This document shows positions 3,835 through 44,300 of a stretch of 60,172 nucleotides of DNA, one piece after another. The translations under genes were made by a program, and so were the position numbers. How positions within the stretch are numbered: position 1 is the stretch's first letter; the number at the start of each line of letters is the position of its first letter. The notes below the pieces were generated by a model. That model had not been told where the DNA came from. It ran no database searches and was given only the letters and a program-made list of their open reading frames with translations. Source of the stretch: Ectocarpus siliculosus (lineage: Eukaryota > Sar > Phaeophyceae > Ectocarpales > Ectocarpaceae); assembly GCA_000310025.1 (NCBI GenBank), contig FN649752.1, forward strand, positions 1,748,159 to 1,808,330, in the 5' to 3' direction.

Positions 3835-5842
3835 TCACCTCCACATCGCCGCCCTTAACCTCGGCCCCCGCTTGCCATGCCGGGGTATCAACGTTAACCC
3901 CGAGAGTGCCCCCAAGGGCAAGCTAGTCCTCGACCCGTTGTCTTCCACAACGGTAGCGGCGGTGGTGGTAGCGGCAGCACTGGGCCACCGCCACGACATC
4001 GCACGAAATGCCGGGCCGCGGTGGAGCACGTGCGCCACGGCTAATAACCGGCGCCGGAGCTCTTCCTCCGGGGTCGCCGGCATGGACGACACCAAGGTTC
4101 CGGCGACACACAGGGCGTCCCGCCCCACCTGGTCAAGGGCATTTTCGTGCGCGCCGGCCTGCAGGAGAAGGTGGGCGACCTCTGGACGGGAATGGGCCTG
4201 CCGTTGGTTTGCATATACGTTACGCGCGTAAGAACAACAACACGTACTTGTGGACACACCCGGGGGGGGGGGGGTGACGAAATTGTTGCCAGAATTTCGA
4301 GACCGCACAAGAACCAAAATATTCCCCCAGAAGGAGCATGCCGGGTTGCTATTAGCACATCACCAAGCGCGAAGCACGGTGAGGTATTCGGCGAGGGTGC
4401 GCTGCATCCTGCTAAGGGTGTTTGTCGGCATCTTGTGCTTACTTCCTTGCATATGGATGGCAGCTGCGAATGGCAGTCCTCCTCGGGGGGGGTAAATTTC
4501 TGAGGTAGACTGATGCTGTCTGTCTGTCTGTCCCCGAACTGGCTCACCGCTGCCCGTGAGAGGGCCGTGCCGAAGATGTTGTCGTTGGCCTTCCCCACGC
4601 TGGAGGTGCTGGCCCCGGCGCGGAGCAGGGCGACCATGAGCCTCCGGGACCCTGACCCTGCGGCCATGTGGACCGCCGAATCGCCGAGGTGCCGCACCTC
4701 CAGGTCGATGCCGGAGGAGATGAGCAGCTCGGCGATGTCGAGACGCCGCCGCTTCAGGGCCTCCGGGGTCGCCTGGAGCTGCAAGAAGCTCTCGAGCACG
4801 GGCGAGGTCTGGCACAGGCCGAGGATCACCTGGAGGAGGCACCCGTGGTTCATCGGAGTCACGGGGTTCATGCCGAGCTCGGTGAGAAGGATCCGGACGG
4901 GGGCCACGGAGGCCGAGCTGCAGGAGATGCTCAGCGGGGTGATGCCGCCGGCCGCCACCGGGTGCACGTCCGTCCCCCCTCCTGGCGAGAAGCCGCATCG
5001 CGTCGAACTTCTTCTGGACCGTCGCCACCGCGAACGGGGTGGACCTGGCCGGAGCGGGTTGGGGTTACGCGGGCAGACAGATCAAATTTGCCTCTTGTTG
5101 TTGTTGTTGTCTCCACATTCTTGTGAGGGGGGGAAACACTCCGGGTATGTTGTATTTGGTGTGTACCCGATACATACAGTTTCTTCTGCGAAGCGACGAG
5201 GGAACGCACAGTTGTGCGATTGATTCTTCAACCTCCATTGCTCCAAGAACCAGAGGGGCTGCCAATACCGAAAAGGGTGGCTGTGCGAATGATGTCGTCG
5301 AGAGCTTTTTCCTTTGCAAGTTCAAGTCGGGATTGGCACACCTCGTGTCGTGGAGCAATCGATAGATAGATACAGAATCGATCGCACACGTTTCGCGTAC
5401 GCCCGCGCTTTTCGGGACACAGTCTTCGGTGTTTACAGGCGGGGTCCTCGGTGGACAGCGCACCGCACCCACTACGTACGCCGGAACATCTTTGTATCAT
5501 CATCATCATCATCATCATCATCACCCACCTTCCGTCATCGAGTGCCTCATGTCAGCGCCATTGCCGAGCAGCAAGTCGACTAGCGCAAGGTGCCCCTGGT
5601 AGGTGGCTGCGTGTAGGCAGCAGAAGTCCGCGTCGTCTTTCGCGTGGACATCAGCCCCCTCGCGGATCAAGAGCTCCGCGGTTCTCTTGTGCCCTTCCCA
5701 ACAGACCTCCACCAAGGGGGTCTTGCCGGTGGCTGATTTGTGTTCGAGGTCGATGGAGCAGCTTGAGAGAAAGGCCACGACCGCTCCGTTGTTTCCGCAC
5801 TTACTTGCAAGCCGCGTAGAGGAGCTCTTGGTGAATGTCCAT
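3835..5842 (-). CDS. Ankyrin-repeat protein gene, probably disrupted
   Basis: The minus strand encodes ankyrin repeats with typical helix motifs such as KTPLVEVCWEGHKRTAELL and ALVDLLLGNGADM. The proposed start is an ATG at 5842 (peptide MDIHQELLYAACK). Exon 2 continues to 5525, exon 3 is 5044-4548 and the last exon is 4197-3835, ending in TGA. Introns are GT-AG, and both later junctions keep frame and join ankyrin halves correctly. There are two lesions. Near 5804-5811 the string AAGT is doubled, shifting frame and creating a GTAAGT. At 4974-4979 a run of six C carries one base too many, splitting ...LLARRG from TDVHPVAAGG. Ankyrin repeats bind proteins, but no partner can be inferred. It may be a pseudogene, or the lesions may be sequence errors. 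The end at 3835 could instead be a further splice donor. Confidence 0.65.
4341..4475 (+). repeat. Dispersed repeat family B, copy 1
   Basis: About 135 bp matching the minus strand of 59905-60033. Shared blocks include acatcaccaagcgcgaagc, gtgaggtattcggcgag and gctgcatcctgctaagg. This copy lies inside the last ankyrin-gene intron (4198-4547). Both copies keep an in-frame hydrophobic peptide resembling RCILLRVF-G-LCLLPC, differing by a whole codon and by silent changes, so a former short reading frame is possible. Confidence 0.75.
5496..5523. repeat. (CAT)n microsatellite at an exon boundary
   Basis: About nine CAT units sit directly beside the proposed donor of ankyrin exon 2 (exon end 5525). 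On the minus strand the intron therefore begins with a GTGATGATG tract. Length change here could alter use of the splice site. Confidence 0.85.
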
Positions 5843-13590: not shown

Positions 13591-16500
13591 TCAAGGCCTG
13601 GGAGGAGCGTTTTGGCCGTCGATTTCCGAGCTTGTCGGCACCGGGGCCGAGAAGGGAGGGGGTGGAAGCATGGTTGGGCGGGGAAGGTCCCCTACGGCCG
13701 CTCCCACGCGAGGCATCGTCTCCTCCGCCCTTGTGTTGTATGATCCACAAGCTCCGCACTGGAACGCCGGTTGATACAAAATCCCAGCGGGGAAGAGGGA
13801 CGAGGAGAGCAAACGTGGGGATAAGGATGGTAGTAGTAGTTGTTGCTGTTTTGTTGTTGTCATTATATCATCTTCACATTGAGAATTGTTCCGACCTCTT
13901 CTTACCAACTTACCAACTTTTCACAGGCAAAGAAAATAATAACTTCCAGGTCGTGCAAGCTGTAGCCAGGAGCAAGGGACAAACACGGGCCCACGCCAAC
14001 CAAAACAAGATGAACCAACAGCAACCACCAACAAAATTGCAGTCTCTCAAGTCCGTCAGCAACGAGAGCTCCGATAGACAAAACTATCTCCCCCCAAACA
14101 AGAAACCCAACCATTTCAGTGCCTTGACACTACACTATTCGAGCGCGCTTGTGTGTGTTAGAGAGTACTCCTGTTGACGCCGTCGATAAAGCAAACCGGT
14201 CGACCAATGACGCGAGAGTAATGCGTCGATCGGAACCCGCCATCTCAAAATGCTGTCACGGAAGGACCGATATCCAATAACAGCTCGTGCACGACTCACA
14301 CCTTACGGAGAACCAACAGGTCAAATCTCCACCGAGACCTTGACAAATAATATTAGTCACAGCAGCAGGTGGTTCAACAAAAGAAAGGTCGCACGTGGCG
14401 TCGAACTACGAGCAACATTATACCTTGAGGTAGTAGAAGTGGTAGGGCACCTCCGTGTAGCGCTCGCAGTCGTGGCAGAGTACCTTCGTCTTCCACCCGG
14501 CGTACGCCTCTGAGACGAAAGGGTTCGAACGGAGGTACAGTAGTATTATAGTACAAGCACAGAGAAAAAAAAATGGGTGAGACATTTAGATATGGCTGGG
14601 AGGGGAGTCTTTTTAGGCAGCGACTAAGAATGAAACGGGGGATAGGATACGACCTGGGTGTCAAAAAGACGCCGTTGCTGAGCGGTAATACTGGCGGTTA
14701 CAAAATCGACGGCCTGCACCGACGGGGGAAAAGCCGGGACAAAAAACAAAACAATATTCTGTACGTATCTTCCTCCTAGATATGACCCGGGGTGGTGCGA
14801 CGTACATATGGGAAGGAAAAACAACGAAACACACAAATAGTAGTCGAGAGAGCAACCCGTGCACAGAACACAAACCTCCGAAACGCATCAAAATTACAGC
14901 TTCGCCGCCAACCCTTCCCTCTCGGTAAATTGGCAAGGGAATAGTAAATAGTTGGGGTCTCACCGGGCATTGGTTGACTGGCGACAACCGCGTCCTGATT
15001 TGTTGTTGTTGTTGTTGTTGGTCGTGGTGTCGTTGTTGTCGTAGTAGTGGTTTTTCCGAGCACGTATTGCACAGAGACAAACGCAAAGAAAAAAAAAAAC
15101 AGAGAGAAAACATCGAAGGCCAACAACACACACGGGGGTAGGGGCGGGGGCACGTCGCGCAAAGGAGAAGGAACGGAGGGCCAGGATCAATCAAGATGGA
15201 GAACATGTACTACCAGTGCATTCGCGTCTTGTGCGCCATAATGCCGAGAAGACCCGCAGGGTTGTTGAAACTCAGCCTTTCTTGTGTGCCGAATGCCGCA
15301 TACGGAAATACACTCCCGTACACCCCCGTCCCCACCATCGCACTAGCCGTGACTTGGCCCACTCACCATCTGCGAGAAGTACTCGCGCATGTCCTCCATG
15401 CTCTTGCGGCAGATCGGACAGCGATACCAGAACTCTCTCGACTCCGCCCTCCCGATGTACTCCTGTACATGTCATGAAGGAGGGGTGTGATATCGATGTC
15501 ATGATATGGCAATAACGTAGGGTGTTTTTCTGTTTGGGATATTTTTTTAGTTTTCAGCTTCGGGGACGCAGCATCACATGGCGAAAAAAAAAAATCGACG
15601 GGTCGTCTGTCAAGTCCACAACTTTTAAGACCACTCCGTATCCTCCCTGAGGGCTCACGATGATGCACCACCCAACTTGACGTACAACGTCAACGTCAAG
15701 GTGACAAGCCTCCATGATAAACACCGTTCAGGCGACAAACCGCTCCAGCTAGAGCAAGCAAGCCGGCATACCTTGTAGCACGCGAGGTGCATGAAGTGTC
15801 CGCACCGGAGGCCCTTGACCTGGCTGGTGGAGGTGAAGAGGCTGTTGTTGCAGATGGGGCAATCGCTCTCCAGGCTCTTGCTCAGGCAGGTGTGGCTCGG
15901 CGCGTTCATCGAGACGCACGCGTTGCAGGTCATGCAGTGATAGTAGTCCTGGTGTGGTTGATGGACATAAGAGGGGAAGGGGACGGGAGGGGAGAGAGAG
16001 AGAGAGATAAGAAAAATAAGGTGCTGTGGGGAGCGGTGTATTAATCACCTCGCAGCACTTCCATGCCCAAGACTCGAGGCTGAGGCTGCTGAGGAGGGCG
16101 AAGGAGCGAGAAAAATGTAGATCGCCATCAAAGGGGCAGCGTTGCCAACCAACGCCACAAGGGACAGAGACTCTCCAAAACAACACAAAAAACTGAGACA
16201 TCTACCAGCCCAACATTCCCGCCGCATTTTAAGAGCATGGAAGCAGCATATACCCGCGATATTCAACAGGTCGACATGGCAAAGAGACGTTTACAAGACC
16301 ATCAACAGGCAAAACTGTGTCAAGTCACACAGCGTACACAAACCATTGGCGGCGCGACTAAGAGACGGCTCACGATATGACTAAACAGGCAAAGTGGGTC
16401 GGGTCCGGGCACACACTTCCAACATGGCGGCGTCCTCTTAAGCTTCACAACAAAGCGACTCGACTCACCACTCCCAGCCCTTTCCCAAGTCGGCACACGT

Positions 16501-17222
16501 TGCAGTAGGGGCAGTGGTAAATGTCCTTCTCAGGGGCATCGTCGAACAGGTGGCAGATGCCGCAGTAGTACCTGGAAGCGCGTGTTCGGGTGGGGGACAG
16601 GGAGAGGTTACTCTCGTGAACAGTGGTGGGGCATGGCGGGGCGGTGATGCACTCCCGTGTACGCGCGGACATCCCTCACGCGCATGGAGGTGGAACGGAG
16701 TACCGTCAGGCCGAGGAGGGAAGAGACGCAGCAAATGTTAAGACAACGACTATCGTGGGGAGACGAAAGAAGGGACCCAACAACAACAACAACAACAACA
16801 ACAACATGTTGAGATGACAAAACCGTGAGACACAGATATGAGACTACAGCTGTATCGTGCCGGCGACGGAGAGGCACTCGAGGGACGACGACGAGACCAC
16901 AAGCACTTACGTACGTACGCGTGTAGTGAACCAAGACTTCAAACAAGCACTAGTAACACACCAGCCACACGGGAGTGGAATTGAAGGACAGAACAACCCG
17001 CGCTTTGCATCAGAAGCCCCGACGACCCGACAGCGCGTCCACAACAGCAAATCGCCTTAGTATTCCCAGTTGAGCGCGCGTGTAACGTATTTAGTGGGAT
17101 CGATGCCCAAGCCTTGCTGCGAAACACACTCAACACAAAATCCGAACCTGGCCATCTTCCTCCCAGTACAAGGAGGCTTCCCCTCCGCGGCAGCTGGACG
17201 ACAGCTGGGATTCCGGCACTCA
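13591..17222 (-). other. CTCHY, RING-H2 and zinc ribbon of the BRUTUS-like gene
   Basis: Exons 12 and 13 give the CTCHY finger (YYCGICHLFDD, DIYHCPYCNVCRLGKGLGV), continued by DYYHCMTCNACV in exon 14. The RING-H2 uses C1111, C1114, C1130, H1132, H1135 and C1138 in exon 14, and C1155 and C1158 (CPIC) in exon 15, the normal ligand set for binding an E2 enzyme. Exon 16 has only 31 bases (DAVVASQPMP). Exons 17 and 18 build the zinc ribbon from LCHDCERYTEVPYHFYYLK and CGACGSYNTR. The protein then ends in a Pro-rich tail with TGA at 13593-13591. Confidence 0.9.
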
Positions 17223-20200
17223 CTGAAAACAAAAAAAATGAAAAGAGAAGGAAAGAAACACGCAAACGCAGGCACGCGCGCAGAGCAAAGCGACAGCGTG
17301 GTCCGAAAGGCATACAGGGAGGAGGATGTTGGGCCGGGAAGAGGCAGGGGCAGAGGCAACGTGAGGAAACAGACGATCGAGCAACGAAAAAATCATAGAA
17401 CACCTTTGCCGTTGGCGATTTGGTCGACTGCGCCTTCGATGTCAAAACGAACGGGCACTGAAGATACAGTTCGTCATCAAGGTGGGTGGCAATCAGACTC
17501 ACCGCGCGGGCTAACAAGAGCGCGTTGCGACCAAGGATGGGTGCGGGACTGCTCCCAAGAACTACTCGGTGCTCCACACCCAGAACGGCGAATTGTCATC
17601 GATCACGCCACTAAAATAATGGACCACACACAAAAAATTCAGTAACGTCTAGACAGGCGAAGACATCTCCGTGGATCATCACACACGAGCACCATCTCCC
17701 CGCCCCGCCCCCCCCTTCCCCCGAAACCGCACCTGTTGATCGGCTGCAGGGTCTCGCACCGCATGCACAGCATCTCCGTCACCTCCTCCCGATCCATCTT
17801 GTGGTCCGACACCTGGTCGTGGCAGAGCCGGCACGTGAACAGCTTCTGGCAGCAAGGGGCGCGGATCTTGCACGCCCGACGGTAGTGCGGGCACCCGAGC
17901 ACCGCCACCTCCGCGCCACCGGGCCCGCCGCCTTCCCCGCCCAGCTTAGCATCCGCCCCGTCGCCGGGAGCCCCGCCGCCCGCGGGGGCGCCGCAGTGAT
18001 ACGTCGGAGCTAGCTCCTCCGGGGTGAAGAGGGTGGGGGGCAGGACCGACGTCCCATCCGCGGCGCCGCCGCTGTCCTCGATGTCCGGCTGGGTGGACGT
18101 GTAGTACCTTGCCGGCGCTACCAAGGCCACCTCGGGCCTGCCGGCCGCCCCCCCCTCCCCGGCCGGCGGCGGCCATGCTCCGCCGGTGGCGAACGGCGGC
18201 CGCGCAGAGGGGGAGGAGGAGGAGGAGGAGGCGGTGTTGCTCGCCGGCCGGGGGCGCTTCCGGCCCTGGTACATGTGGTTGCGCATCATCTGGACGAGAG
18301 TTGGAAGGGGGAGGGAGGGGCGGCGTCACGCGTTGGAGAGTGCAACTGGATGGATGTGTGTCGAAAATTTCTTCGGGAGGAGGAGAAGGGAGGGGCGTCA
18401 CGGCGCCATCACTCCTGCCCTATGCAGGTCGACTCTGCTGTCGAGACTTCCCACGCGAGAGACAAATTAAAGCAGCTTTAGAACGTCAGCAGTAGTATCA
18501 TCACCATCACATCATGCTCTGCTCTCTGGAAATCTACATGTCAGTGTAGAAGTAACAGCCGCCGCCGCGTCGTTACTCTTGCGCTTCCTCTAAACAAGCG
18601 ACCAACGCACCTGCACCAAACCGCTCTTGCGCTCCGTGCTAAGGTCGCTCACGTGCGCCAACCGCTGCGGGAGTGACCATCAAGAGAACAAGAGGGCGGG
18701 GGGGATCAGGAACGACACGGATCAAATAATCCCCGCGTCGAGAGATGACCACAAAGAGGGAGTTTGTTGTTGTTAACCTGGCCCGAAACGAAAACGCTTG
18801 CCGAAATGAAGGGAGAACTTTTCGGGTCAACGAAAACAAAAAATAAAAAACGCGCCGGCACGCAAGAGTCTCGGTTGGAAGAGCACGCCGCACAAAACCC
18901 ATAGCACCGCCCTCCCTGCCGCCGCGCACACATCCCAACGAAGGTTGTACACATCACTTTGCTAACACCGCGGGACACCTCTCTTCATCTGCATAAACGA
19001 CCAGGTAGACGGGAGTTTGCCAATGAACAACAACACGGCCAAGTGTCCACGCAGACACATACGTCTCCCCCCCCCTCCAAATTTCTTGTTTTTTCCAAGA
19101 GGGTTCGTCGGTACAGCAGGCCCGCGCACAAGCACAGTTTGTCTAACCATCACGTCTCAAGGCGAGATAGCTTTCGAACGGTACGTGAGTAAATAACAGC
19201 TTATAAGAAGCTGTTTAACATCACGTGAGGTAATCATTTCGCCAAAAGCGTCACCGCCATCGTCATGCATTCATCCACCTACCCTCTTACCTTTACCGCC
19301 GACTCGAACTCCATCTGGGTCAGCGGCTCGTTCACCGGGCAGCGGCCGATGTAGCTGCACACGCTGCACGACTTATCGCGGCGCTCCTCTCCGTCACCGG
19401 GACCTAGGCTCAACTCCGCCCCGCTAACGCGCCCTCCCCCCGCCGCCATTGCTTGCTGCCGATCACTATCGCAGCCTCTGGACCCTCCATCGACAGCCGC
19501 CGCACCGGAGGCGGCGCTGCCCGGCGGCGAGTCCCTGCCACGTCTTCTTCCGTCACGAACGGTTGCAGGGGGGGGGGGGAGACGGGAGCGGAGGCACGAA
19601 CGGCAACAAAAACGCCGTGCAAGGGTTAGAAGAGCCTGTAGGTGTATATATACATACTTCTACGTGGCATTCCTTCATCGCGTCGACCAACGATGAGGCG
19701 CAAGCAGGAATATCGCAACTATGTAGCGCCCTACAGTAGCAGTAGAGCGGTAGCAGTGAACACAAAATAAAAAAAACAGCCTGCGATGGCGACGAAGCAC
19801 GGGTATCGCAATTCCTGCGCGCGCGACAGCACAGAGTAGCAGCCAAGAAAAAAAAAAAACATACCACATTTGTACACATGACACGAAGAGCGTCGGGCAG
19901 CCAGGCACGACCACGAGGCAGGTGCGCCACCCATTCTCCCGTGGTCCCAACACTCCAACCCGCGTCACGCACGCGCAGAAGAGGGGCGACGGACTACCTC
20001 TCCCTTGCCCTCGTAATAACACCAACAATCCTCCGTCCTAAGTCGCTTCTGTGTACGGCTGGCTGCTGCACGTATTTTTGCTATTGTAGTCTCGCGCGCG
20101 TGCGGGTAAAAAACACCTCTGCCGCCCGTCACTGTGCGCCCCCCACAGGAAACGAACCCGGAACAAAAAAATGCCTCCCGAAAACCTCGGGCGCGCGTTT

Positions 20201-23200
20201 GTCCATTCCGGTATCAACGACAAACGTGTGAACCTATCCCCCCCCTACCGTGCTCACCCGCCGCGGAGACTCAACCCCTCGAACTCCCGATCCAGAGAGC
20301 AACACCCGTCGAGCCCCCGGGCGCCCCCACCCACCCCCGCTGCCGCCTCTCCCAGCGGCCCCCCCTGGCGCTTGATGCCCCCGCCCCCGCGCCTCTCCTC
20401 AGCTCCGGGCGCCGATGCTGCTGCTGTCGGTGCCGGCATCGCGGCGAAGCCGGAGGCACTACTGTCCGCCGATAGGGCGCCTGAAGAGCGCGAGGCCGCC
20501 TGGTGGAACGGGCTGTGGCCGCAGCTGCCGCCGACGCCGCTGGAAGAGGTAGTGCTAGCACCGGTGGCGGCGTAACCGATGCCCTGGACAACCCCCCCCG
20601 CTCCGGCCCACGCGGCGCCACCGCCTCCGATTCTCTTGGTGACCGTTCCTCCTCCCGCCTGCGGGCACGATGAATCCAAGAGGGAGAACCGTCACATCGT
20701 AAAATCTATGGTAGCCGTTTTGTCTTCCGCAGGTCGTCCTGTTCACTATCCAACACCAATCTGCTGCTCTTTGGCAGTCCCTGCAAAACAACCCAGTCAC
20801 AGGTTTCCTGTGCCGGCGAGAACCGGGCATATCGCTGCTCTGTCCCGGCATCGTAGCGATAGGAGTCCAGTGCAATAACGATGACGGCATGCTTTTTACA
20901 TGAGTACCCTCCCCCCCCTCCCCCCCCACACAGACCACCACTACCGCAATGACCCGCGGAACTCATCGAAAACAGAGACAACAACAGCGACACCACCCAC
21001 CATCTTGGTCACGCTGTTCTTCAAGCTGTGGCTGCTGTTGCTGTTGCTGGGCGCGCTGTTCGTCGGCCACTGGAACCCCCCCGAAGCCAACCACTTCTCG
21101 AAGTACGTGTCCTTCACGGCGTGCTTCATGTAGCCCATCACCGTACGCACCTCCTCTTCGGGAAGGTTGTTGATCATCATCGATAATATCGTCTGTGTGC
21201 GTGTATTTTTTTATTTTATTTTTTCACGGCAGGGAACGGGAACAATAAGAAGAGAAGGGGATGGGGAGGTTGTTGATCATCATCGATAAGATTGTCTGTA
21301 ATGCTTTGCTTTGTTGCAACTCAGCGAGTGGAGACAAAAAGGCAGAGAGGTAACCATGTGGTTTGTGCACGAGGCAGGCGTGAAGGGACTACAGGAGAGA
21401 AACGAACGTTGCACCCAAGATGATTGAGGGGCAACAGGGATGCTGGCACCAGCAGCTATTTAGAACGCAGGCAGTCGTGCTCTTTGTCTCTCTGTGGGTG
21501 CTATCACGTGAACACACAGGACACCCAACACTGGCGCGCACAACAGTGCGGTTGGGGAAAACGGGGGAAACAAAATAATACGTCGTTCTCCATCTTTTCG
21601 CCCCGGTGCACGTCCAAGCACGCTTTGAGGCTCGAGCAGGCGACGCCCTCATTCAATCTCTAGGTCAAAACCTTGTCTCCAAAAACATGATGCATCAACT
21701 AATAAAAAAACGTTTCTTGCTTTTTTCACCTGCATCAGCTCGGTGGGACGCTTGCCCATAATCTTCCCGACCAGGGCCCCCATCTCCGGCCCGGTGAAGT
21801 AGTGCTTGATCAGGGGGAGGGCGCTCTCTTCCTCCTATGTATACAGGTCACATAACGTGTCGCGCGACCACAAGGATGGCAGGCGTGTATCAAAGTACTG
21901 CTGTAGGTAAACGAGGCAAAATAAAAACTTGCACGCTGCTGCACATCCGAGCAAAAGGAAACGAAGCATCAAGAAATTGAAACAACAACAACAACAACTA
22001 CTACTACTACTACTACTACGAGGAGGTACGTAGCCGCAATCTGGCATGGCGGTCGACCATGCCGTGATGCTGCGAGAACTGCCAAGGAGTAGGCATCTCT
22101 TACGGTCGACGTTACCCCAGACACTCATCAGCTCTACCAAAGCATCGCTCTTTGGAACCACCTGGCACGCAACATCCTACAGTACGCAGAATGGGGGCTG
22201 TGTACAATCACCTGCTGTCCACCACTGACCACCTGATGAGAACTTGGTGCTTTGACAACGCGAAGGAAATTCGCCAACTATTCAGCATGCCTCAAACCCG
22301 TTCCGTCTCGACGCCTCGTCAACCGTTGTCGACTATTTACAACGGCTTGGACCTCTTACGATTTTACGCCATCTCGGACGTTCGCGCGCGACCAGCCTGG
22401 GTTGCCCAAAAAGAGACGACCGACCGACTTTCACCCACGCACCAAGCATCCTCCACGTCCCCCCAAACAAAACCAGTAACAATGCTGGTGCGGTAGACCA
22501 CCACCACCACCACCACCAGCTGCACACGCACACCTTGTCGAGGTGGGTCATGAGGTGCCTGCACATCTCGTCGGCCTTCTTGCCGAGGCCGTTTACGACC
22601 TCCAGCCGCTCGGTGACGCTGCTGTGCCGCGTGTTTCGCAGACCCTTTTTGGGCGAACATAAAACAAAAAAATCGGACACACACGCGGCCGGAAAACGAC
22701 GGTTGGTTCTCGAAAGTCGGCAGGAGTCACCACACGCAGGCCACACTGGTGTCTGTGCTTGCTTGCACACACAGCAGCACAACATCAAACATCGTTGACA
22801 AGCGTGTCGTGTAACTATCGGCTGGCTTGCCTCTTGGTTAACGCCATCCTTTTATCTCTTCGCGTTCACAAATCTACAGCAGTAGCTGTGTTATGCATGC
22901 TCTGGGGAACCAAGCTTGTTTCCACCTATTTTATCTTTAAGCATCATGTTGCTGATGTGCACTCAGGATCTTGAAAATAGCAACGTCGTATGGATGAAAG
23001 GGCTTCGAAGTGACTCACATGGACGGTGCTTGCAAATTGAGCGTGAATTTGTGCTCAAAAAGTAAGACGGGAAAAAATCTGCCACGAACGCTTGGTTGGG
23101 TTTCTCACTTCCCCGCCCCACACCACGAGCATTTCCTTGAACACGACACATGCAACTCCGATTTCGATTTCAAGGCCTCAGCAAACTTCGACCAAGGAAC

Positions 23201-26200
23201 ACAAAACCATGGGGAGTAGTACCGTTCCACTCTAGCCTTTGTGGTACAACTGATTTCGACTGCCCACCCCACCCCTCGTCAACGGTCTAACCAGTAAAAG
23301 GCATGCAAAGCATGAGCGTACTTCCCCCCGCCCTTCCTCCCATCCCGTTAGCCGGCGTTCCGTCTCCCTCACCGTGAGCACTTCTTGCATTCCCTCGAAC
23401 AGCAGCTGCTCCTCGTGATGCTCTTCCGTGTACTCGGCCTCGTCGATCATCGCTTCCCCGAACTGCCCCCCATCCCCGTCCTGTCCCCCCCCTCGCCCTC
23501 CCTCCACACCACTACCACCAGCGACAACCTCTCGCTGCTCCGCCCGTCTAGCGCCATCGGTTGCGGTGGCCTCTCCCTTCACGCGAGAAGGGTCATCCTG
23601 CTGCTCGTCTTTCGAGGTTTTGCCTTCGTTTCTTGCGGCCCCCGTGCCGTTGGACGGGATGTCCTCCGCAGCTGCTGTAGCTGCGGCTGGTGGTGGTGGT
23701 GGTGGTGGTGGTGCTGCTGTTGGTGTGTCGGAACCATCACCGTGGTTCACCAGCTTCAGCTATTGTCGGATAGACGAGACAAGACAAGACAACAGCCGGT
23801 TTCGCGTTGAAGGTCTAGACAAGACAAGGCAAGGGCCGTCAACACGAAATGTGGGAACAGTGACACCGGGATGAACTATTACTATTTATATAGGCGGAAC
23901 ATTGCACTCTGCGTCCGCAAACCGAGTGATAATGCGCCCTTCAGAAGGGTACGCTAGTTGTTCTAGGGCGCGGGATCTCCACGTCCTGTCTGGTCGCCTG
24001 GCTACCGAAATCGCAAGTGCTGCTGTGACAGGCGTCAACGCGCAGGAGGAGTTACAGTACTGGAATCACATCCCCGGCGCCATCACATTTCTCGGGCGGA
24101 GAATTGAATGCGATGGACAAAGGTTATACGGGCCTCCCTTTCCTCCAGGTGAAGACCGGCGGGCGTTCTCGTCATCTAGTTAGACCAGCTAAAGCGGGGG
24201 AAAAGCACGCGCAAAACCGTAAACCTATCTCCCCGCCACGTTTCTCAAAAAAACACTACAGGCACAGCCACCACCACCACCACCACCACCACCAGACCCG
24301 GCACCAGAAAAAAACAAAACACATGCTACCCTAGGGAGAACACATGTGTGGTGAAAACGGAGGTCATGGAACTAGAAGCACATATACCGCCGCCTCACCT
24401 TTCCACCGCTGGAGCGGGCCTTCTCCTTAAGCGCGGGCCAGATAACCTCGTCCTCCGCCGTGGAGTGGCTCTGGAACACGGCCCACAGGAGCTGAAACTG
24501 GCTCTGCACCCGCACCTCCAGCTCCAGGTGCTGCGCCGGAAGCGACTCCGCCGTCGGCCCCGCTGCGGCAGAGGAAGAAGGCGACATCGGCCCTGGTGTT
24601 GTTGTTGAGGCGTCGTTGGCGGTGGACGGGGCCGCCGCCACTGCTGCCGCTGCCGCCGCCGCCGCCGCCGGTACCGTTTTCTCGGTCCGATCAGCGTCGT
24701 CGCCCTCTAGCTCAAGCGTCATCGGCGCCGTTGCGGCTTGGTCCCCGTCGTGGTGGTGGTGGTGCTGCTGCCGTGGCGAAGGCGCTGCTGCCACGGCGGA
24801 CGGCGTTTTGTGGTGGAGGTCTCGCATCTGGCGGCACAGGGTCTGGACGTTTGTTCGGAGGGAACGCAGCTCCCCGCGCAAGCACTCTGTGCATCGGTCG
24901 TTGGTGTTGTGCGAATCGCACGGTACGGTAGGCAAAAACAAGGTGATCGTTTAGCTCGTGGTTTTGGGGGATAAACGCCAACTCAGGCCAAGAAAACCTG
25001 AACAGGTCACGCCCATTTGCAACGGCTGCCGCTGTGCCAGTAGAAGCGCCTAACACGGATTATTCAGCACAGGGGCGCTGTGGGGAGTATGGATCAATGC
25101 AGGTAGGTGTCATGTTTGACGCGAATCAGCCCCGATGTTTCGCCCGACCACCTCCTGACGAAGCGGCGGTGCACCGCCACCGTGTGAAAGCACCATCGTC
25201 GTCGTGAAAGCGCAAGGTTGCCCGCGGCAATTGTTGGGACGGTTCAAATCGCCATTTCTCGTACAAATAGTGTGGTCGGTCTGAGGGTGCACTGGCTCTT
25301 TGCACTTTGCCCTACTCTTCGAATACTGCCGTACGTCGGCCACGGGATCAAAATCGACAGAGCAGTTTCACCTTTGCTTACCACGCAATCAATACAACGA
25401 GACGGTCTATGTACCGCCCCCCCTTTCCCCGCCGGCATAATCTCTCTCTCTCTCGGCTTACCATGGAAATGTACGATCTCGATGAGCGGGCAGTCCTCGA
25501 AAGCTTGTCTGGCCGATCGTCTGCTGCCCCTGTTCAAAGGGGATGGAACGTGAAACCAAAATTGGTGTGAACATTGGAAAACGCGTAAGCCTGGCGTTGT
25601 TCGGCACGGCGGTTTCAAAGGTTGTGAGTACTGAAAATAGCGTAGAAACAAGATAGTGTATCTACTGATGTACTTCAATTCGCGAAAAAAGTTTGTTTGT
25701 ATCTACGAGCAGCATGCCTACACATAGCGGTCGGTTTATGGTAGGAGGTGGTCCGGGCGGGTCACCAGAACCACGTCCTTCATTTAAGATATCGTCGATT
25801 GTTTGTTGTCCACTCGAACAGAATCCGAAAAGGTCAGTGAGAAGTACTACAACACACAGATCGTCCCAGAGGGGGGGGAGTACTAGAACTACGTTCAACG
25901 GGCTGTAGATGCATCGATGCATCCGAGAGAGAAAATACAACCAACAACCAACAACTAACAACCAACACAAGAGGGGGGTGTTGCGGCAGAAAGCCGCCGC
26001 CAACTGACGCCAACCGTCCGCCGCTTGGGGCGACAAGCCCAACTCATGCGCAGTAAGTTACGCCGTCGCGGGTGCAGGTACGTCTAGGCACACGATATGC
26101 ATATCCCAGACAAGAGTTTTTTCCAACGCGACGGCACGACGCAGACACCATGCGGAACAGCGTGGTCATGCTTACAGTATCGACGGCGGTGAAGGTGGTT

Positions 26201-26787
26201 TCAGCTCCCCGCCTGCTCCTCTGGGGCAACTAGATTCGAGTTTGAGCCTGCTGGCAAAAAGTATCAACACAACAAATGTACAAAAATCAGTTCAATTTGT
26301 TGCAGGAATGCTCAATCAAATATTAACCCCCCTGTTCTCACTTGCTCTCGGAAGCAGTCGAATCGCCCATTCTTCCGTCGCCGTGCTTCTCCAGGTCGCC
26401 CGGAAGCTGCGCTTGCTGCACGGGCTGCTGCTTCCCCATCCCGCTAGTTGTCGTGTTTGAAGGGTGCCGCCCTCCAGGGGCACACGCAGATAGGCGTTCG
26501 CCAGCTCCATTGAATCTTTCTGCCATCCGCTGGTCCCTCCGAGCTGCTTCTGCTGCTGCCGCCGCCGCCAGCCCACCTGTGGCGCACAACAACCTACTCC
26601 TCTCTCTGTCCCTCCGCGGCCCACGATGACCTCTCCTAGACGAAGAAACCCCGATGCGAAGGGCGTCCGCTTCAGGCCAACGGCATGGGCTTGACCGCCT
26701 CTGCAGCGAGCGACGCCTGCTGCACGCGCAAGCCTGCCGCTGCCTGCTGAGCCCCACCAATCCTGTGGGGCGACGAGGGGTCTTCAT
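13591..26787 (-). CDS. BRUTUS/HRZ-like hemerythrin-CHY-RING E3 ubiquitin ligase
   Basis: Eighteen exons join without a frame break into 1266 residues: 26787-26342, 25529-25462, 24886-24399, 23759-23373, 22644-22534, 21834-21730, 21192-21001, 20658-20258, 19546-19291, 18664-18611, 18289-17733, 17222-17148, 16571-16469, 15948-15772, 15462-15367, 14994-14964, 14509-14424, 13758-13591. The start CCACCATGAAG is a strong context. Order: hemerythrin (about 160-570), conserved linker, CHY zinc finger (967-1021), CTCHY finger, RING-H2 and a C-terminal zinc ribbon. This is the architecture of plant BRUTUS/HRZ ligases, which bind iron through hemerythrin and mark transcription regulators for degradation; length is close to Arabidopsis BRUTUS. 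One hemerythrin domain is seen where plants have up to three. An iron-sensing role is inferred from family. Least certain boundaries are the exon 9 acceptor (two in-phase choices) and the weak exon 12 donor. Confidence 0.9.
16781..16806. repeat. (CAA)n microsatellite in an intron
   Basis: A run of about eight CAA units lies in the intron between exons 12 and 13 of the BRUTUS-like gene. It has no evident role. Confidence 0.85.
17733..20658 (-). other. Linker and CHY zinc finger of the BRUTUS-like gene
   Basis: Exon 8 is Gly/Ala-rich. Exons 9-11 read ...PLTQMEFESAVK, RLAHVSDLSTERKSGLVQ and MMRNHMYQGRK, matching the conserved helical linker that precedes the zinc fingers in plant BRUTUS proteins. 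Exon 9 also carries CSVCSYIGRCPVNEP, an extra cysteine cluster of unknown role. Exon 11 ends in the CHY finger: LGCPHYRRACKIRAPCC, FTCRLCHDQVSDHKMDR and MLCMRCETLQPIN supply the Cys/His ligands. Confidence 0.85.
21163..21301. repeat. Duplicated exon 7 boundary segment
   Basis: About 33 bases spanning the acceptor and first codons of exon 7 (21163-21196) recur at 21267-21301, upstream of that exon in gene orientation. Both share ggttgttgatcatcatcgat and a following gtctgt. The second copy keeps the acceptor-like AG, but has no full exon behind it. It is a local duplication inside the intron and could act as a decoy splice site. Confidence 0.8.
23276..23330 (+). repeat. Repeat family C (poly-C-tailed), copy 1
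   Basis: The core gtcaacggtctaac is followed by gcatgcaaagcatgag and then a C run. Related copies lie at 42401-42478, 43331-43415 (minus) and 60061-60146. The constant order of core, direct catg motifs and C tract suggests a short retroposon family. This copy lies in the intron between BRUTUS-like exons 4 and 5, directly beside exon 4. Confidence 0.55.
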
Positions 26788-32300: not shown

Positions 32301-35300
32301 ATGGCGTCGAAAACCGGTGAGAGGCAAGCGTTGTTGTTCCCGTCTACTGGCGGTGGCGGCGGCGGCAGCTTTGGGGGTCGTCATGGCTCTACCCGGAACA
32401 GCAGCAGCCACAAGATCAACCAAGGTTCGCCTACGATCACCGTGCCAAACGACAAGGATCATCACCTTCTTCCTGTCGAAGTTCCCGGCGGCAGCGACGA
32501 GCACTCTTCTTCCTCGTCAACATCGTTTCGAGGAGAGGTGGGCCCAGCGAGATGGTATTTCTACACTCGATTGATGCTTCATCTGAGTTGCAACACGTGG
32601 CGATCAACAACAACCTGGTGATGATTGTTATGGAAATGCCTACTACGCATGTCCTGTCTTCAGTAGTTTTTGCAGTCTGTTAGTGACTCTTCCTATCTAA
32701 CGGCTTTTACGCCCTCTGATTGGTCCGGCGTTGGTTCCTAGCCTTGACCCTCTCCAGCGCCCTCTCGCCGTTCGCATTCCGAGAACGCGGCGCAGCCGCG
32801 TTCTCGACCAGTTCGCGGCCGCTAGGCCGTGCTTTGGCCGTGGGTGAGGGTTAGGGTTAGGGTTAGGGTTAGGGTAGATGTGGGGTGAGGAACCTAGCCT
32901 TGCTCGCGTGAGGAACCTAGCCTTGCAAAGTGCAACATCGGTTAATAGACCTCCCTGTCTTAGTCAATGTTCAGTACTACTGCTTATGTAGACGAATGAC
33001 GTATTGTATGTGTTATCTAGTCCATGCATCGGTTGGAACGTAACGTATGCGGAGCAACTACTGCTGTGAGAGCTGTACGTAGTTTGTAGCTCGTTCTGTC
33101 GTTCGGTGCACGACCTCACTCTTTGGGATATCTCTCTCTGTGATCTATCGGACTGTCTGGGTACTCTAGCTGTCCTTGTCGTACCTTGGGTGCTGCTGGC
33201 ATACTGCCTGATCTATAACGGTCTGTCTGGTGTGTCTGTCTGTGTTGGCCACCTAACCCCCTTACCACGCACAGAAAATTCGGCGTTCGTGCGAAATTTC
33301 TGAAATGTAAGACAAAGAGCGAACGACGCCTGCTGATTGGATGGTGCAGACAGTTCCATCCCTGGGTGCAAGTGCAAAGCTGCCTTCCGACTTGAGCCGT
33401 CTATTGCGTATAATCCCTATCAAATTGTCCCCTCGATACGAGGGGACATTTGATAGGGCTTATAGACAGCAACTGGCGGGAGGGTGGAAAACGGGGCACG
33501 AAAAGGAGGTTTTCAAGATATTTCTCTAGAGGGAAAAGCGAGACCTTCTAACTCAAGCCCTGGGTTGCTCGGTGCCTCCTATCAACGGTGGGCTAGGTAC
33601 TTCTTCCGCGCTTGCCCCTAGTAGCGCTTTCCACCCAAGGGTAGACAGACGCGGCGCAACTTCGCTGTTGAACCCGCGGCGTAATCGCCCCGCGATTCGA
33701 CCTGCTCATTACCCTCCTCATACTCCTCTGTTGGTAAACTCGTGGCTTCTGGGGAAAAGATGTTGTATTGATGAGACCTTGGACCAGGAGAACAGGTCAA
33801 AAGGTGGAGTGAGCTGGGTGCGCGAGCACCGCAGCATCAGCCATGTCGCTCGACCAACACACAAAACATGGAACTCGGACCAATGTACTATCCGACATAC
33901 CGAGAACACGCTCGGGTCTATGAACCATCCGACATACCGAGAACACCATCCACGAAGAACATTCCTAGAAACATTCCTACCAAACGACAGTCCCGTTATT
34001 TGAACTTCCTGTTAGTGTTCTGCGCTACTTGTCGACACACAGCAGCAATAATCACGAACACCCTCCCTTGGGGCTGTTGTCTCGACCAGACCAAATATAT
34101 ATCAGAAATAGCAAAAATAGAAAACACGACTCAGACCTCTATCTACTTCTCAGATCTCGAGCCTAGAGCAAAATTACGATGAACTTCAAAAAGATCTTTC
34201 GGCAGCGCCTTCGTCAGGATGTCCGCATGCTGTCTTTCGCTAGCGACATGACTGATTTCCAACACTCCCTCTTCTGTCAAATTCCTAAGGAAATGGTGCC
34301 TCACGTCAATGTGCTTACTGTTACACGAACTAAGTGGATTCTCAGCAAGTGCAATCGCACCCTCGTTATCCTCGCGTACCTGGATCTTACCAAGCTTCTC
34401 ACTAGGCCTCAAGAACTCGAGCATTCCGTTGACAAACAGAGCCTCTTTCACACCGTCACCCATCGCAACATACTCTGCTTCAGTGGTTGAAAGTGTGACA
34501 CATTTCTGCGTCCTAGAAATCCAAGCAACAAGACAGTCAGCTACAAGAACTAGTGCTCCCGAAACTGATCTACGATCAGTGGCCTTACTGGCAAAGTCTG
34601 CGTCTACGTATACCAACGTGCCTACGTCTACCATAGTGTCCTGCTTGTACTTCAAAGTTAGATGTGCCGTCTCCAGAAGATAATTCAGAATCTTCTGGGC
34701 CGCCTTCCAGTGGCTCTTCTTTGGCTCGTGAGAGTGCCTCGCCACCGCCCGCACAGCATTTGAGATGTCGGGCCTTGTCTGGTTGGCGATCCACATCAGG
34801 CTCCCCACCACCTCTCGGAACGGCACATCTCCTGCCCCCTCATCCTCCATCACGGACCTGTAATCGTTAGCAGGGGAAGCAGGGATCGAGCTGGTGCGAC
34901 AAACATTGAATCTCTCGAGAACACTCCTGATGTAACTCTCTTGAGACATCTCAATCGTACCAGCCTCACGGTCGCGAACGAATGCGCAACCAAGAAAGAA
35001 CTTGACCTCGCCCAAATTCTTCGTGGGGAGAGAGTCACCTAGCGCTTCCACAACCATCTTGGCAAGCCTCTCAATGCCTGCATACAGAATGTCATCCACA
35101 TGAATCGCAATCATACCCAACACCTCGTCTCCCATAATGAAACGAAGAACGCAGGGGTCAGACAGAGACTGTTCGAAACCAATCCTCTTCAGGTCCGACA
35201 CAAGTCTCTTGTGAAATGTTGTTCTAGATGCCTGTCTCAGTCCATACAAACTCTTGTCTAAACGGACTACTTTTCCTGTCATCGACTCACAGCTAGGAGG

Positions 35301-38300
35301 CAACTTCATGAACACCTCGTGATTCAATTCCGACTGAACAAACGCTTGCTCAATGTCAAAGTGAAGAAATTCCAAATCATACTTGCACGCCAATGCTACC
35401 AACAAACGAATCGATGCAGCATTTGCAGTAGGCGAGAAAGTCTCAAGATAATCCAAACCATGCTTCTGCTTGAAGCCCTTCGCTACAAGCCTAGCCTTGG
35501 CCTTCATTATCTTGCCTGTTTCATCTGCTTTCCATTTGTAGACCCATCTAGCATCTATCACGTTACAGCCTATTGGAGCATTTACTGCTAACGCAAACGT
35601 TCCTGCTCTTAACAAGCCTTCAAATTCTACAGACATGGCTTCGTCCCAAATCGTGGAATACTTCGATTGGCGGGCTTCTAGATAGCTACCCGGTTCCGAC
35701 TCTACATCTTGAATTAGTACTTTCGGCAATTCCATTGCATCAGATGCTCTCTGTTCGACTAAGAGTGCCAATATTATTTCTGATGCGGAGATGGGTCCTA
35801 GAGTGGCCATGAGGCCGGGTACGCTCTGCTGATTTACTGCCCGAGTTTGCGCACGGGTTCTGCCTTCTCTGACTTCAACATTCTCATTCATAGCAGTGTT
35901 GTAACTAGCAAGCTCATGCCGCGCACGACGATTGGATGGTACGTGCGTAGCAGGGGGAAATGCCTCCGATTGTACCTCCTGCCCTCCCGGCTCAACCAAC
36001 TCTTGATCCAAACCTTCCTGACTCTCCGACTCTACCTCCTGCCCTCCCGGACCCGCCGATTCTGTCTGCCCTGTCTCCGGCCCTCCCTGCCCTCCCTCAT
36101 CGGAGAACTCGTCTGCTGGAGAAGACACAGGGGGAGCTGCGCTACTAGAGGAATTAATCGCGGGCGAAGATGGCATAGAGGGGGGTTGACCTACACTGCC
36201 TGCATCAACACTGCCAACCTCATCGATTGTTCCACCAGAGATATCACGTCGCAAAAGAATGTGGGGAACTCCTCTTCCTAAAAGCGGCCATACCTCAGCT
36301 TCTACATCGTCGTCACGTTCCTCCCCTCCCTGCTCTGCAACCTCTATCGGCAAGAGAGACGGTTGCGGTGGAGGGAGCTGTGACGGCAACGCTTCTCATG
36401 TCACATTCCTCGTTTCCTGAATAGTTCCAGCCCTCGTAAGTACTCTATGACAGTCACGCGGGTGGTCTCTTGAAGGACCGACATAAAAGCAAGCCTCACC
36501 CTTCGGTAGCAGCTTAGACGGACGCTGCCACCTACAGTACGCCGGTTTCAAAAACGGATACGGTCTAGCATGACTAGCTTCACCATGCCACATCTCATAC
36601 GGTGACTTACTGTCGGGGTTAGCGGAACAAGCTGTGTGGTTGATTGCTTCGCAAGCCCAATGCATCGCCTCAGCCCATAGTCTATCAGTCTTAGGTAATT
36701 GCACATGCCCAAACAAAACTTTTGCCTGAATACGAGCAGCCATTGCCGCCGCCTCAATCAATCCCAAACCACGCTCTGCAACACCGTTGTATTGGGGACT
36801 GTAAGCCGGGGTGAACTCTTGCTTAATCAAGAGCTCGTTGCACACGGACGCAAATTCTCCTCCGAAAAACTCCCCCCCATTGTCAGATCTAACAATCTCA
36901 ACCAATGATGGGATACCATCAGCACGCACACTTGCAAGGAAACTCCGGAAAGCACTCGCAGCGTCTGATTTACTTTTCAGGAAATACATCCATGTACGTC
37001 TTGTGAAATCATCCTTCACTATCATGGGGTAATGTTTACCCCCTACGGACGCAACGTCCTTCCGCCCTCCCAGGTCAACAACAACTCTGCCCAACTTTTT
37101 GTCTGATCTGCATTTTGTTTCATGAGCAATCCCTTTCTTGAATGCCTTCGACATCGAACATCCCGTACAAGCATGCATTTTACCGGTCAACTCGATACCT
37201 AGTCGCTTTGCAGTTGTACGAAGCAATCCCTCATGCGAATGAGCATAAATGTTACGAAACTCGTTCACATCCATCTTAGATTCATGCTTGGGGTTTGAAG
37301 GAGTGAGGGCAGTTAACACCGAACCAACAGATTCATCTTCAAGACGATACGCAGTCTTAAATAGCATGCCATCGAAGCTCTGAAAAATAGTATGTCCGTC
37401 GAAAACAGTCATCACACCATCAGGACCACCAAGCAAGGTAATTCCATGACTCACCACCAATATCTGCGCTGGGAGAAAAGGTGATATCCCAAGTTGGGAG
37501 ATTACAATACATGCTCCAACTCTACAGAAACTCACGTCAGCAGTCACAAACACCAACTCCAAGGTTCCAGACAGTGCTCTGGCTCAAGGGTAGAAAGTGA
37601 TTTTTCAACACTCGAAATGACTTGCTGGGGGAACCTGCATGCCTAGCCATGGTATTGAGAGAGTTCTTATTCAAACAGTCGAACAAAATCCACCTTGATA
37701 TCTCAGTCTGGCACAGCACACCCATGTAGTATGTTGTATCCTTTCTCTACCCAGGGGGTCAGATCGAATTCAATGCTTGCAATCGAAATCCCTACATGTT
37801 GCACAGAAACAAAAGCCTCATACAGATTATTGTTGTGGGCACTCAGTACAGACAATTGTGACCACGACGGATACAACACGTCCGTCCCGTCAAAAACAGA
37901 AGCTTTGGGAACTTTGAAAGGACTCCTACCCAAGGTTTCTCCTGTGTTATTAATGCCGGCCCAGGAATATATGTGTTTCCACTGGCGACACGTCCCCACC
38001 ACTCACTCGATGGAGTAGATGGGGGCGGAATGGAAGACTGGCTACCTAAAGCCCCACTAACCATTCCCGGAATGGAAGACTGACTATACACCTAAAGTCC
38101 CACTAACCATTCCCGAACCGAAAGACTGGCTACTACCCGAAGCCCCACTAACAGTTCCAATCGAACCAAAGCTTGCAGCACCAGCAGAGGGACGATTTAC
38201 AGCAGATGCATGACGGTTCAAGTCTGAGTCTAGAAGACTACTACTCCCAACTCTCACGCTGGACATGCCAAGGACTTGGGCACTGCTGCCCTTACCTCCC

Positions 38301-41300: not shown

Positions 41301-44300
41301 GCTTGTACTGAGGATCCTGCGCCCCTTGGTGTCGTTCCTACCGATACCCAAGGCAACAGCTACTGCTGCTGCTGTTCTCCAAGAGTAATAACAAGTGAGT
41401 TCTGTCTTCACGGGTCAACCAGACTTCATCACGCGTGCATACCACCACACTTGGCGTCGTCGGCTTATTCGTACGGTGCTGTCTGGGTTGGTTGTGTCTT
41501 GGCACGGTTTGGTGTTTTAGGCTGCTTCACGCGTGCATACCACCACACCTGGCTCAGATTGATGAAAGGGACTGATGAGCTCATAGAAGCCGGAACTCTT
41601 CTTGTAAAAGAGTGCCACATTGTTGCAAGCAAGACCCGTGATTGATTGCCCCCTGCTCCCGAGAGGTTTATTCGCGACGAAGAGTAAGATCACTCGGGGA
41701 ATAATTAGTGCCTCCCGGTGTTCGAGACGATGCCACATATTCGAGGTGCGTTCTCACTCGCATTAAAAATACACCGTAATATCCTCTGTCATAGCCTCCC
41801 GGGGCGATCGTCTCGCTTTTGTGAAACCGTACACGGCACGGCTATCTCAAAGATAGAGGGGCGATATTTCTAAAACCAAATCAATAACCCGGGGCGAAAA
41901 GGTCCTGGGGGACGTTCGTTGTCTCTTTTTTGCAGTGATGCACCTGCTGTATTGAACAACAGTGTACAGCACAGCGCTGACACGCTGACCCACACGATGT
42001 CGGGACTCAACAGCATCTATGAGACGATGATGGAAAGGAATGGATTTGTGAGCATCCCGCTTGTAACATCAACACCAAACCACTACCGGTACAGTACAAC
42101 AAATACGGCAACTGGCACACGCACGAGAAATTGAACGCTGCCACAATGGAATGCCGTCCGTGGGTTTGTGTGCGAACGCCCTGTGGGGCGCCCAAAATAG
42201 TTGCCGATAAACGAACGGACTCAATCAAAGGTAAAGGGGCGAAAAAATGAAAGAGAAAAAACAAGCGATACCCCAGGGGCTAATTGAAAGTTTTCGGGAT
42301 ATCACAGCGATTTTTACGGAGGGGGGGCGATGATAGAGGATATTACGGCAAGACAGCGCGGCTGTTGCCCGTGATCGGCCCTGTGAGAACAATGCTCCGT
42401 CCTCTCGAGGATGCGTGGTCAATGGGCTAACCGCTAAAAGACGTGTGTGTACAACATGATGAGTGCCCCCCCCCCGGCCGCCCCTCCTCCCCCTCCTCCC
42501 CCCGCCACCACAACGATTGCCCGCAGAACGCTCCTGTCGCCTGTTTTTGGGAGGATGTCCACGGAGCACGGCTACCGGCGAGCGTTTCTGATCTCCACGG
42601 TCCTCATTCCCTTCGCGTCTCTCTTCTATGCGGTGGCCGACAGCGTGTTAACGGTTTTCCTGTCGCAGCTCTTCCTAGGTACGTTAAAATCGGCATTGCT
42701 CATCGTTTGCTGACGACATGCAGGGTTGAACACGGGATACCTGCAGCACCTGCCCAATACGAGTTGATGGGAATTTGTGAGCGTATTTGTTAGATCCGAT
42801 GTGACACTGCACTGAAAACAATTGGTGTACAACTACACATTGTATAATACCAATTCGTTGACGGCGTCTCAGCTTGCGGCGCATGGCGCATGTCTTGTTG
42901 TGTGTGTCAGGCGTGCTCATGTTCGTTCGATGCGGTTGTTTTATGCGGAGGCCCCAGCACACGCGTTAAAATGGATTAATTAGTTTTGTGTCTTGCTTGA
43001 TTTCCTTCCAAACAGTCAATCGTTGATGAAGCGACACCAACGTAACGACGCTGAAGTCAATAGCTCTATAGCCGCCGCCGCTGCCGTTGTCCTGCTTCGT
43101 GTCTTTCACGACCAACTCGCACACCTGAGGTCAGGCATGGGAAGCGGAACGTTGGGAGTGACGCGGGCGTACGTGGCTGACAAGACAACGAAGGAGCAGC
43201 GAACCTACCTCCTCGCCTATACCACGTGAGAATGTCGCTTGACAGCCCTGCGACCGTTAACTGCCGTGGTGGTTCCAGAACAATGGCACCAGTAGTAGCC
43301 AAAGTAGACAAGCCGCTGCACATGATTGGGCGGGGGGGGGCGTACTCATGTTTTGCATGACTTAGCAGTTAGACCATTGACCTCGCGTCCTCTAGAAGGG
43401 GGGGGGGGGGGGGGTTGGAAAAACGTCAAGTGCCATTTAGCCGTGCTTGCTTCTTGTTGTACCTCGCTGCTTTTTTAAATGGTCCAAACCCTTCTGACTT
43501 ACACACCCCCCCCTCACCACCCTATGCCCCAACTACTCGAACACGAACGTCGTAAAGTTGAGCAAGTGCTGCACCCTCTGCTCGGAGTAGTGTCGCCCTA
43601 ATTTGTGCCAAACGTAAGTGTAAGCTGAAACGCTGTGATGCGCTTCGATCCATGCCGCTATCTACCAAGACCCGCCGCTGCCAGCTCCTCCTCCTTCACC
43701 TACCCGTTCACGCGCTCCTTGCTGCCACCAACGCTGTCCCATCGCGATGCGCCTTGTTTCTGACTACTGTCGCCGTCATGGACGCTCCTTCCCTGCCCTC
43801 TCGATGCCGTCTGCCTCGACACACGCACATCCCTTTACTTTGTTCGCCCCTCCTCTCAGATCTGTGCAGTACGCCGGGCTTACCGTCATGCCGATTCTGG
43901 GCGGGTTCTTCAGCTACCTGCTGGGCTCGACGGAGATCCCGCTGCTGGGGCGCTTCCTCTTGCTGACGCAGTTCACGGCCCCTGCCTTCTTCGTGGCGGC
44001 CATGTCCACCGTCTTGTTCTTGCTGCTCTGGTCTGTCTTCCAGGACGGTGAGGGGAAGTTGCGAAGGAGAAATTGTCTATAGGGGGTGAATTTTCTCTCA
44101 CACACGCCTTCTCCTACCTCAATGCCCTCTGGTCGGATCTTCGTGTCACCCCTCACCCTACCCTACCCCAGTTCCCCCTGTCATGGGAGGACTGTAGACG
44201 GAGAGATAAATGGTAAATGGTTTCTGTTCCCTCCAATGGTGTACTATCCGGGACGAGAGTGAAGAGTTGAATGGTTTGGTTGTGTTTGTTTAGTTTGTTT

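Follow-up and report, generated by a model that had tools for sequence, protein, structure and literature searches.

A predicted single-hemerythrin RING ubiquitin ligase with BRUTUS-like architecture in Ectocarpus siliculosus

The window analysed here, a 60,172-nucleotide (nt) stretch of Ectocarpus siliculosus DNA (contig FN649752.1, positions 1,748,159 to 1,808,330), carries on its minus strand a gene whose predicted product joins a hemerythrin (Hr) domain to the type of E3 ubiquitin ligase module found in the plant HRZ and BRUTUS (BTS) proteins. An independent reconstruction was made from the open reading frames on that strand. In the resulting model 18 exons run from 26787 to 13591 and all 17 introns (309-812 nt) are of the GT-AG type with consistent phases, which agrees with the 18 phase-consistent exons of the initial annotation. 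The spliced product is a single open frame of 1256 amino acids (aa), from the first ATG at 26787 to the stop codon at 13593-13591, and along it the sequence shows one Hr-like domain with candidates for all six di-iron ligands and a complete E3 module. A product of 1266 residues had been claimed earlier; the single open frame with hemerythrin, CHY, CTCHY, RING and zinc ribbon stands. In exons 8 and 9, the source of a Gly/Ala/Ser-rich linker, several alternative acceptors are nearly equal, and this could account for the difference in length. The exons are listed below, GC3 being the GC content at third codon positions and E the expectation value.

Exon 1, 26342..26787, minus strand: aa 1-148, low-complexity N-terminus with uncertain start codon; open frame and GT donor.
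Exon 2, 25462..25529, minus strand: aa 149-171, beginning of hemerythrin helix A; the last residue is the candidate ligand H171.
Exon 3, 24399..24886, minus strand: aa 172-334, helix A (remainder), a low-complexity insertion of 82 residues and helix B, which carries H312xxxE316.
Exon 4, 23373..23759, minus strand: aa 335-463, a low-complexity insertion of 96 residues followed by helix C, which carries H449.
Exon 5, 22534..22644, minus strand: aa 464-500, helix D with H497; FBXL5 alignment.
Exon 6, 21730..21834, minus strand: aa 501-535, helix D continued, E501; FBXL5 alignment.
Exon 7, 21001..21192, minus strand: aa 536-599, post-hemerythrin, probably helical; open frame with strong codon bias (GC3 0.91).
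Exon 8, 20258..20658, minus strand: aa 600-732, Gly/Ala/Ser-rich linker, acceptor ambiguous.
Exon 9, 19291..19516, minus strand: aa 733-808, linker, acceptor ambiguous.
Exon 10, 18611..18664, minus strand: aa 809-826, linker preceding the CHY finger, probably helical.
Exon 11, 17733..18289, minus strand: aa 827-1011, low-complexity, then CHY zinc finger (zf-CHY aa 959-1021, 5.8e-18).
Exon 12, 17148..17222, minus strand: aa 1012-1036, part of CTCHY with an insert not in RCHY1 (RCHY1 alignment).
Exon 13, 16469..16571, minus strand: aa 1037-1071, CTCHY zinc fingers (RCHY1 alignment).
Exon 14, 15772..15948, minus strand: aa 1072-1130, end of CTCHY and start of RING (zf-RING_2 aa 1100-1149, 2.2e-6).
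Exon 15, 15367..15462, minus strand: aa 1131-1162, end of RING; Pfam and RCHY1 alignment.
Exon 16, 14964..14994, minus strand: aa 1163-1172, 31-nt microexon that completes the ungapped alignment with RCHY1 chain 2k2d.
Exon 17, 14424..14509, minus strand: aa 1173-1201, first half of the zinc ribbon (zinc_ribbon_6 aa 1154-1211, 1.5e-23).
Exon 18, 13591..13758, minus strand: aa 1202-1256 and stop codon, end of the zinc ribbon and C-terminal tail.

The GC content is 0.662 in the coding part as against 0.520 in the introns, and in 13 of the 18 exons the frame used here outscores the other two in codon use, stop codons being left out of the score. It does not do so in exons 1, 2, 4, 12 and 16. Location inside a conserved domain offsets the weak score of exons 2, 12 and 16, and in exon 4 it is the 3′ end that encodes helix C, the first part being of low complexity. 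Exon 1 shows no frame preference in codon use and is the weak point of the gene model; having neither codon nor domain support, it leaves residues 1-148 and the start codon uncertain. It may be added that a 37-base stretch at 21160-21196, which covers the start of exon 7 and its splice acceptor, is repeated with 92% identity at 21263-21299 in the intron directly upstream.

The ligase half of the predicted protein is secure. Pfam profiles match the spliced protein in the order zf-CHY (5.8e-18), zf-RING_2 (2.2e-6; 28.2 bits, above the cut-off of 27.3) and zinc_ribbon_6 (1.5e-23). When solved structures were searched, chain 7ynx of the animal protein RCHY1 (Pirh2) aligned over CHY-CTCHY-RING with an E of 1.3e-38 and RCHY1 chain 2k2d over the zinc ribbon with 1.4e-10, so that the two alignments together cover exons 11-18. 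In both alignments taken together 105 of 238 aligned residues are identical, as are 39 of the 43 Cys and His of RCHY1; all 4 differences fall on His residues, which we take, from the usual RING and CHY spacing, not to be zinc ligands. The zinc-ribbon alignment is ungapped across exons 15-18, the 31-base microexon included, and thereby gives codon-level support for the three introns between them. Compared with RCHY1 there is an extra insert in CTCHY as well as two added residues around GKGLG, and these we presume to be BRUTUS-type features. The succession of CHY, CTCHY, RING and zinc ribbon that characterizes HRZ, BTS and BTSL proteins is thus found here, CTCHY from the RCHY1 alignment and the others also from Pfam, and both the domain order and the BRUTUS-like E3 module proposed in the initial annotation are borne out by the Pfam order and the RCHY1 alignments. 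The helical linker, described there as conserved too, may be so by comparison with plant sequences. RCHY1 is described as having no Hr domain (PMC6381054), and the presence of one here sets the protein apart from the class of RCHY1/Pirh2, in which the E3 module stands without it.

Because exons 8-9 are of low complexity with ambiguous acceptors, and because RCHY1-type ligases without Hr exist, a model of this kind could arise from two neighbouring genes wrongly joined, with exons 1-7 belonging to a hemerythrin protein and exons 11-18 to an RCHY1-like ligase. Yet the two halves share the strand and the order seen in HRZ/BTS, the frame stays open through exons 8 and 9, where the codon score is positive, and the E3 half has the CTCHY insert and the two residues around GKGLG, both missing from RCHY1. 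A false joining is accordingly held to be very improbable.

The hemerythrin half is well supported, though less strongly than the ligase half, and its assignment is built from profile, structure and motif comparisons. Two low-complexity loops interrupt the domain, one at aa 203-284 (82 residues, between helices A and B) and the other at aa 340-435 (96 residues, between helices B and C), and a loop-free query was made by removing both. After loop removal the Pfam Hemerythrin profile matches over its positions 16-127 with an E of 3.2e-5, and the NCBIfam model TIGR03652 (di-iron RIC) matches with 9.6e-7 at 28.8 bits, far under its equivalog cut-off of 204.7. Candidates for the full H-HxxxE-H-HxxxE set of di-iron ligands are H171, H312xxxE316, H449 and H497xxxE501. 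The search of solved structures aligned animal FBXL5 (chain 3v5x) over helices C and D with an E of 0.012-0.024, placing H449, H497 and E501 opposite its H80, H126 and E130, which we take to be iron ligands. The assignment of H171 follows its position at the junction of exons 2 and 3 and the plant helix-A sequence. A strict pattern, H...HxxxExxxxxP...H...HxxxExxxxxP, which was composed after the sequence had been seen, was matched by 1 of 20,000 shuffles. Other Pfam matches beside the Hr were at chance level and were put aside: DUF7607 0.019, TGT 0.072 (loop-free) and CR_prot_dom_plant 0.36 (whole protein).

Several results weigh against the reading of this region as a hemerythrin sensor. On the whole protein the Hemerythrin profile gives an E of only 0.013 (16.4 bits against a cut-off of 25.3), and its best stretch, aa 445-510, corresponds to profile positions 7-62, so that the first half of the model is matched and the second is left out. 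Even after loop removal the 24.9 bits remain just below the gathering cut-off of 25.3, so that of the profiles which had been expected to match, those for CHY and RING do so at the values given above and that for hemerythrin falls short. Also, the Pfam match to the loop-free query begins at its residue 34 and thus leaves out H171, which is residue 17. With the loops in place, a low-complexity loop match to 8zf0 (0.00077) outranks FBXL5 (0.021) in the search of solved structures. A loose form of the ligand pattern was met by 2145 of 20,000 shuffles and was therefore rejected as proof of Hr. The N-terminal hemerythrin with H-HxxxE-H-HxxxE that belongs to the HRZ/BTS/BTSL architecture is nevertheless found here as a candidate, its profile just under the cut-off and H171 outside the match. 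As an alternative to the model, the loops may be excised as cryptic introns; the six best in-phase pairs listed per exon measure 111-264 nt in exon 3 and 48-144 nt in exon 4, compared with 309-812 nt for the 17 introns of the model, and have weaker donors.

A single Hr had been seen in the initial annotation, and no second one was found in upstream scans of limited power, so that, where HRZ/BTS/BTSL have two or three iron-binding Hr motifs, one was found here. Rice HRZ2 was likewise first annotated with one Hr owing to an incomplete reading frame and was later extended in the 5′ direction (PMC6381054), and because of this precedent further Hr domains were sought upstream. The helix-B pattern had no match in the window outside this gene, and its relaxed HxxxE form had none on the minus strand of 25.4-46 kb, the lower bound lying above helix B. 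A crude helix-A pattern gave two further matches in the window, one of them at 31288 on the minus strand, immediately ahead of a stop codon, and the helix-D pattern had no match anywhere in the window; as both these patterns missed the gene's own motifs that cross exon junctions, the motif scan is informative for helix B only. A phmmer search with the loop-free query against 2218 reading frames (the window and one other locus, that of an Hr protein on contig C9) gave at E below 1 only the exons of this gene and the duplicated fragment of exon 7. The C9 protein itself was reached only at an E of about 2, which means that a domain could escape these scans if it had diverged strongly or were badly split. 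Above exon 1, a coding scan found on the minus strand a single short stretch, rich in lysine, at 29.7 kb, followed by the reverse transcriptase of a copia-type element at 34-38 kb; the plus strand has two short stretches over the same threshold, at 32.0-32.1 kb. The rice history, the weak coding support in exon 1 and the helix-A match at 31288, stop codon and all, would suit a gene that truly has two or three Hr domains of which the upstream ones were missed, but the helix-B and phmmer results, together with the single lysine-rich stretch on the minus strand between exon 1 and the copia-type element, argue that this is quite unlikely.

To place the gene in its genome, 189,456,909 bases in 492 contigs were searched with profiles exon by exon, which makes all counts lower bounds since genes split by introns can be missed. 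CHY matched twice, in this gene and in a short stretch on contig C18, where no RING was seen by eye among plus-strand frames of at least 35 aa in part of the surrounding 9 kb. The zinc_ribbon_6 profile matched this gene and, weakly, contig C6 (E 0.86), with none on C18; a second full ligase in the genome is thus not supported. Hemerythrin had one match, on C9, but the search did not list the Hr exons of the present gene, so that its silence elsewhere is weak evidence. That second hemerythrin gene (C9:769500-778500, at about 4432-5586 of the locus) has frames with HxxxEDE and HxxxEE motifs; it adjoins hydrophobic, membrane-like frames and by eye looks unrelated. A single bHLH match was found genome-wide. 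Ferritin gave 0 matches, again with the reservation for split genes, whereas 14 of 14 control genomes were positive, and this fits brown algae, which are described as storing iron without ferritin (PMC10588612). The 0 matches for FTR1 are uninformative owing to the splitting of genes by introns. Chloroa_b-bind matched 87 stretches, so the organism is photosynthetic; these matches cluster on contigs C16, C92, C232 and C488, with many identical scores on the last three. Among candidate relatives, 4 stretches of viral contigs and 11 of genome contigs fit a search pattern and 0 were confirmed in either set.

Elsewhere in the window, the copia-type retrotransposon occupies 34146-37583 on the minus strand, with RVT_2 (1.8e-47) and integrase (1.1e-10) in two adjacent reading frames. 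A 221-residue frame with FNIP repeats (1.3e-34, six stretches) lies at 49931-50593 on the minus strand. Probable fragments of a major-facilitator transporter extend over about 43134-46046 on the plus strand, where MFS_1 at 45816-46046 has an E of 0.0014, below the cut-off, the remainder being judged by eye. A run of 100 N is present at 46854-46953 and may be an assembly gap.

Among known systems the closest likeness is to HRZ/BTS of the green lineage, which share the N-terminal Hr followed by CHY-CTCHY-RING-zinc ribbon, the H-HxxxE-H-HxxxE set as given for plants (PMC12022348), with candidates for all of it here, and, with 1256 aa here, the published length of 1200-1400 (PMC12022348). The differences are that one Hr is found here against three in the green proteins, that two low-complexity insertions lie within it, that the protein is probably from outside the green lineage, and that bHLH, the plant target family, looks nearly absent with its one genome match. 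The initial annotation allowed plants up to three Hr domains; three do occur, but they are now described as present in all HRZ/BTS investigated and as invariant in the green lineage (PMC12022348), with two or three iron-binding motifs within the three Hr-like folds of HRZ/BTS/BTSL (PMC6381054, PMC12022348). As this one family feature fails, the protein would work like HRZ/BTS without being a plain member. Animal FBXL5 also has one ubiquitination-linked Hr domain with which three ligand positions align, although the sequence similarity is weak at the E already given. We take FBXL5 to be an F-box/leucine-rich-repeat adaptor without a RING of its own, and Pfam, with E allowed up to 10, matched no F-box or leucine-rich repeat anywhere in the 1256 aa, which separates the present protein from the FBXL5 class. 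Closer in lineage is the diatom gene Phatr3_J12097 of Phaeodactylum tricornutum, reported in 2016 as encoding a hemerythrin and a CHY domain and as responding to low iron with one of the strongest inductions (PMC5156380). It too is a stramenopile protein with a hemerythrin-like domain and a C-terminal CHY finger, the comparison being with a domain summary in which RING and zinc ribbon are unmentioned (PMC5156380); diatom homologues are also described as induced by iron deficiency (PMC12022348). Among the matches listed from the surveyed open-access literature, no description of a brown-algal HRZ/BTS or of a complete one-Hr ligase was found. Given the diatom precedent, the broad claim that a RING ligase senses iron through Hr in a stramenopile is not a new one (PMC5156380); the architecture is present as had been proposed, and the sensing is a prediction. 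What appears new is the complete one-Hr ligase, of a kind already glimpsed in diatoms.

Taken together, the gene product is likely an E3 ubiquitin ligase of the hemerythrin-RING type, built like HRZ/BRUTUS but with one Hr. The iron or redox state of its one di-iron centre would gate the ubiquitination of an iron-uptake regulator, and the protein is probably an iron sensor. In plants this architecture acts as an iron-responsive brake on iron uptake (PMC6381054, PMC12022348): HRZ/BTS are made under iron deficiency, and filling of the di-iron sites with oxidation is proposed to switch on the ubiquitination of transcription factors and so to close uptake (PMC12022348, PMC6381054). From the plant-like parts we infer a comparable negative feedback on iron uptake here. 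As cytosolic iron rises, the single di-iron centre would fill and oxidise; this change would act across the long low-complexity linker to stabilise or un-gate the E3 module; and the active ligase would ubiquitinate the iron-uptake regulator for degradation. What the sequence shows is the reading frame and its domains; iron binding, ligase activity, gating and substrate are predictions. Two further points join those raised above against the hemerythrin region. The substrates of plant HRZ/BTS are bHLH factors, and with a single bHLH match in the genome the plant target set is probably missing, so that another substrate is expected, probably one unlike the bHLH factors of plants. Also, the three plant Hr domains are argued to be interdependent (PMC12022348), hence a single Hr may not sense alike. 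The second profile matched by the loop-free query, the di-iron RIC/YtfE family, is linked to nitrosative stress (PMC9052748), which would suit an Hr that senses oxygen, nitric oxide or redox state instead of iron supply, with the ligase controlling a stress regulator; but the overall architecture fits the iron-regulating HRZ/BTS and the diatom gene with Hr and CHY responds to iron (PMC5156380), and we regard such a role as unlikely.

If the gene is an iron-gated ligase of HRZ/BRUTUS type, it is possible, though we put it forward only tentatively, that stramenopiles carry a single-Hr BRUTUS ligase with one di-iron centre and a non-bHLH substrate, representing either the state before triplication of the Hr domain or a reduction that took place independently. 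In that case the architecture would predate the green lineage, in which it has been described, or lie outside it; a 2019 review gives the combination of Hr and E3 as not found outside that lineage (PMC6381054), and a 2025 study presents the three Hr domains as invariant and interdependent (PMC12022348). A complete one-Hr version from outside the green lineage would serve as nature's own test of the contribution made by three domains, and would give biochemists a less complex protein to work with. It would also offer a candidate iron regulator for brown algae, with their reportedly ferritin-free storage of iron (PMC10588612).

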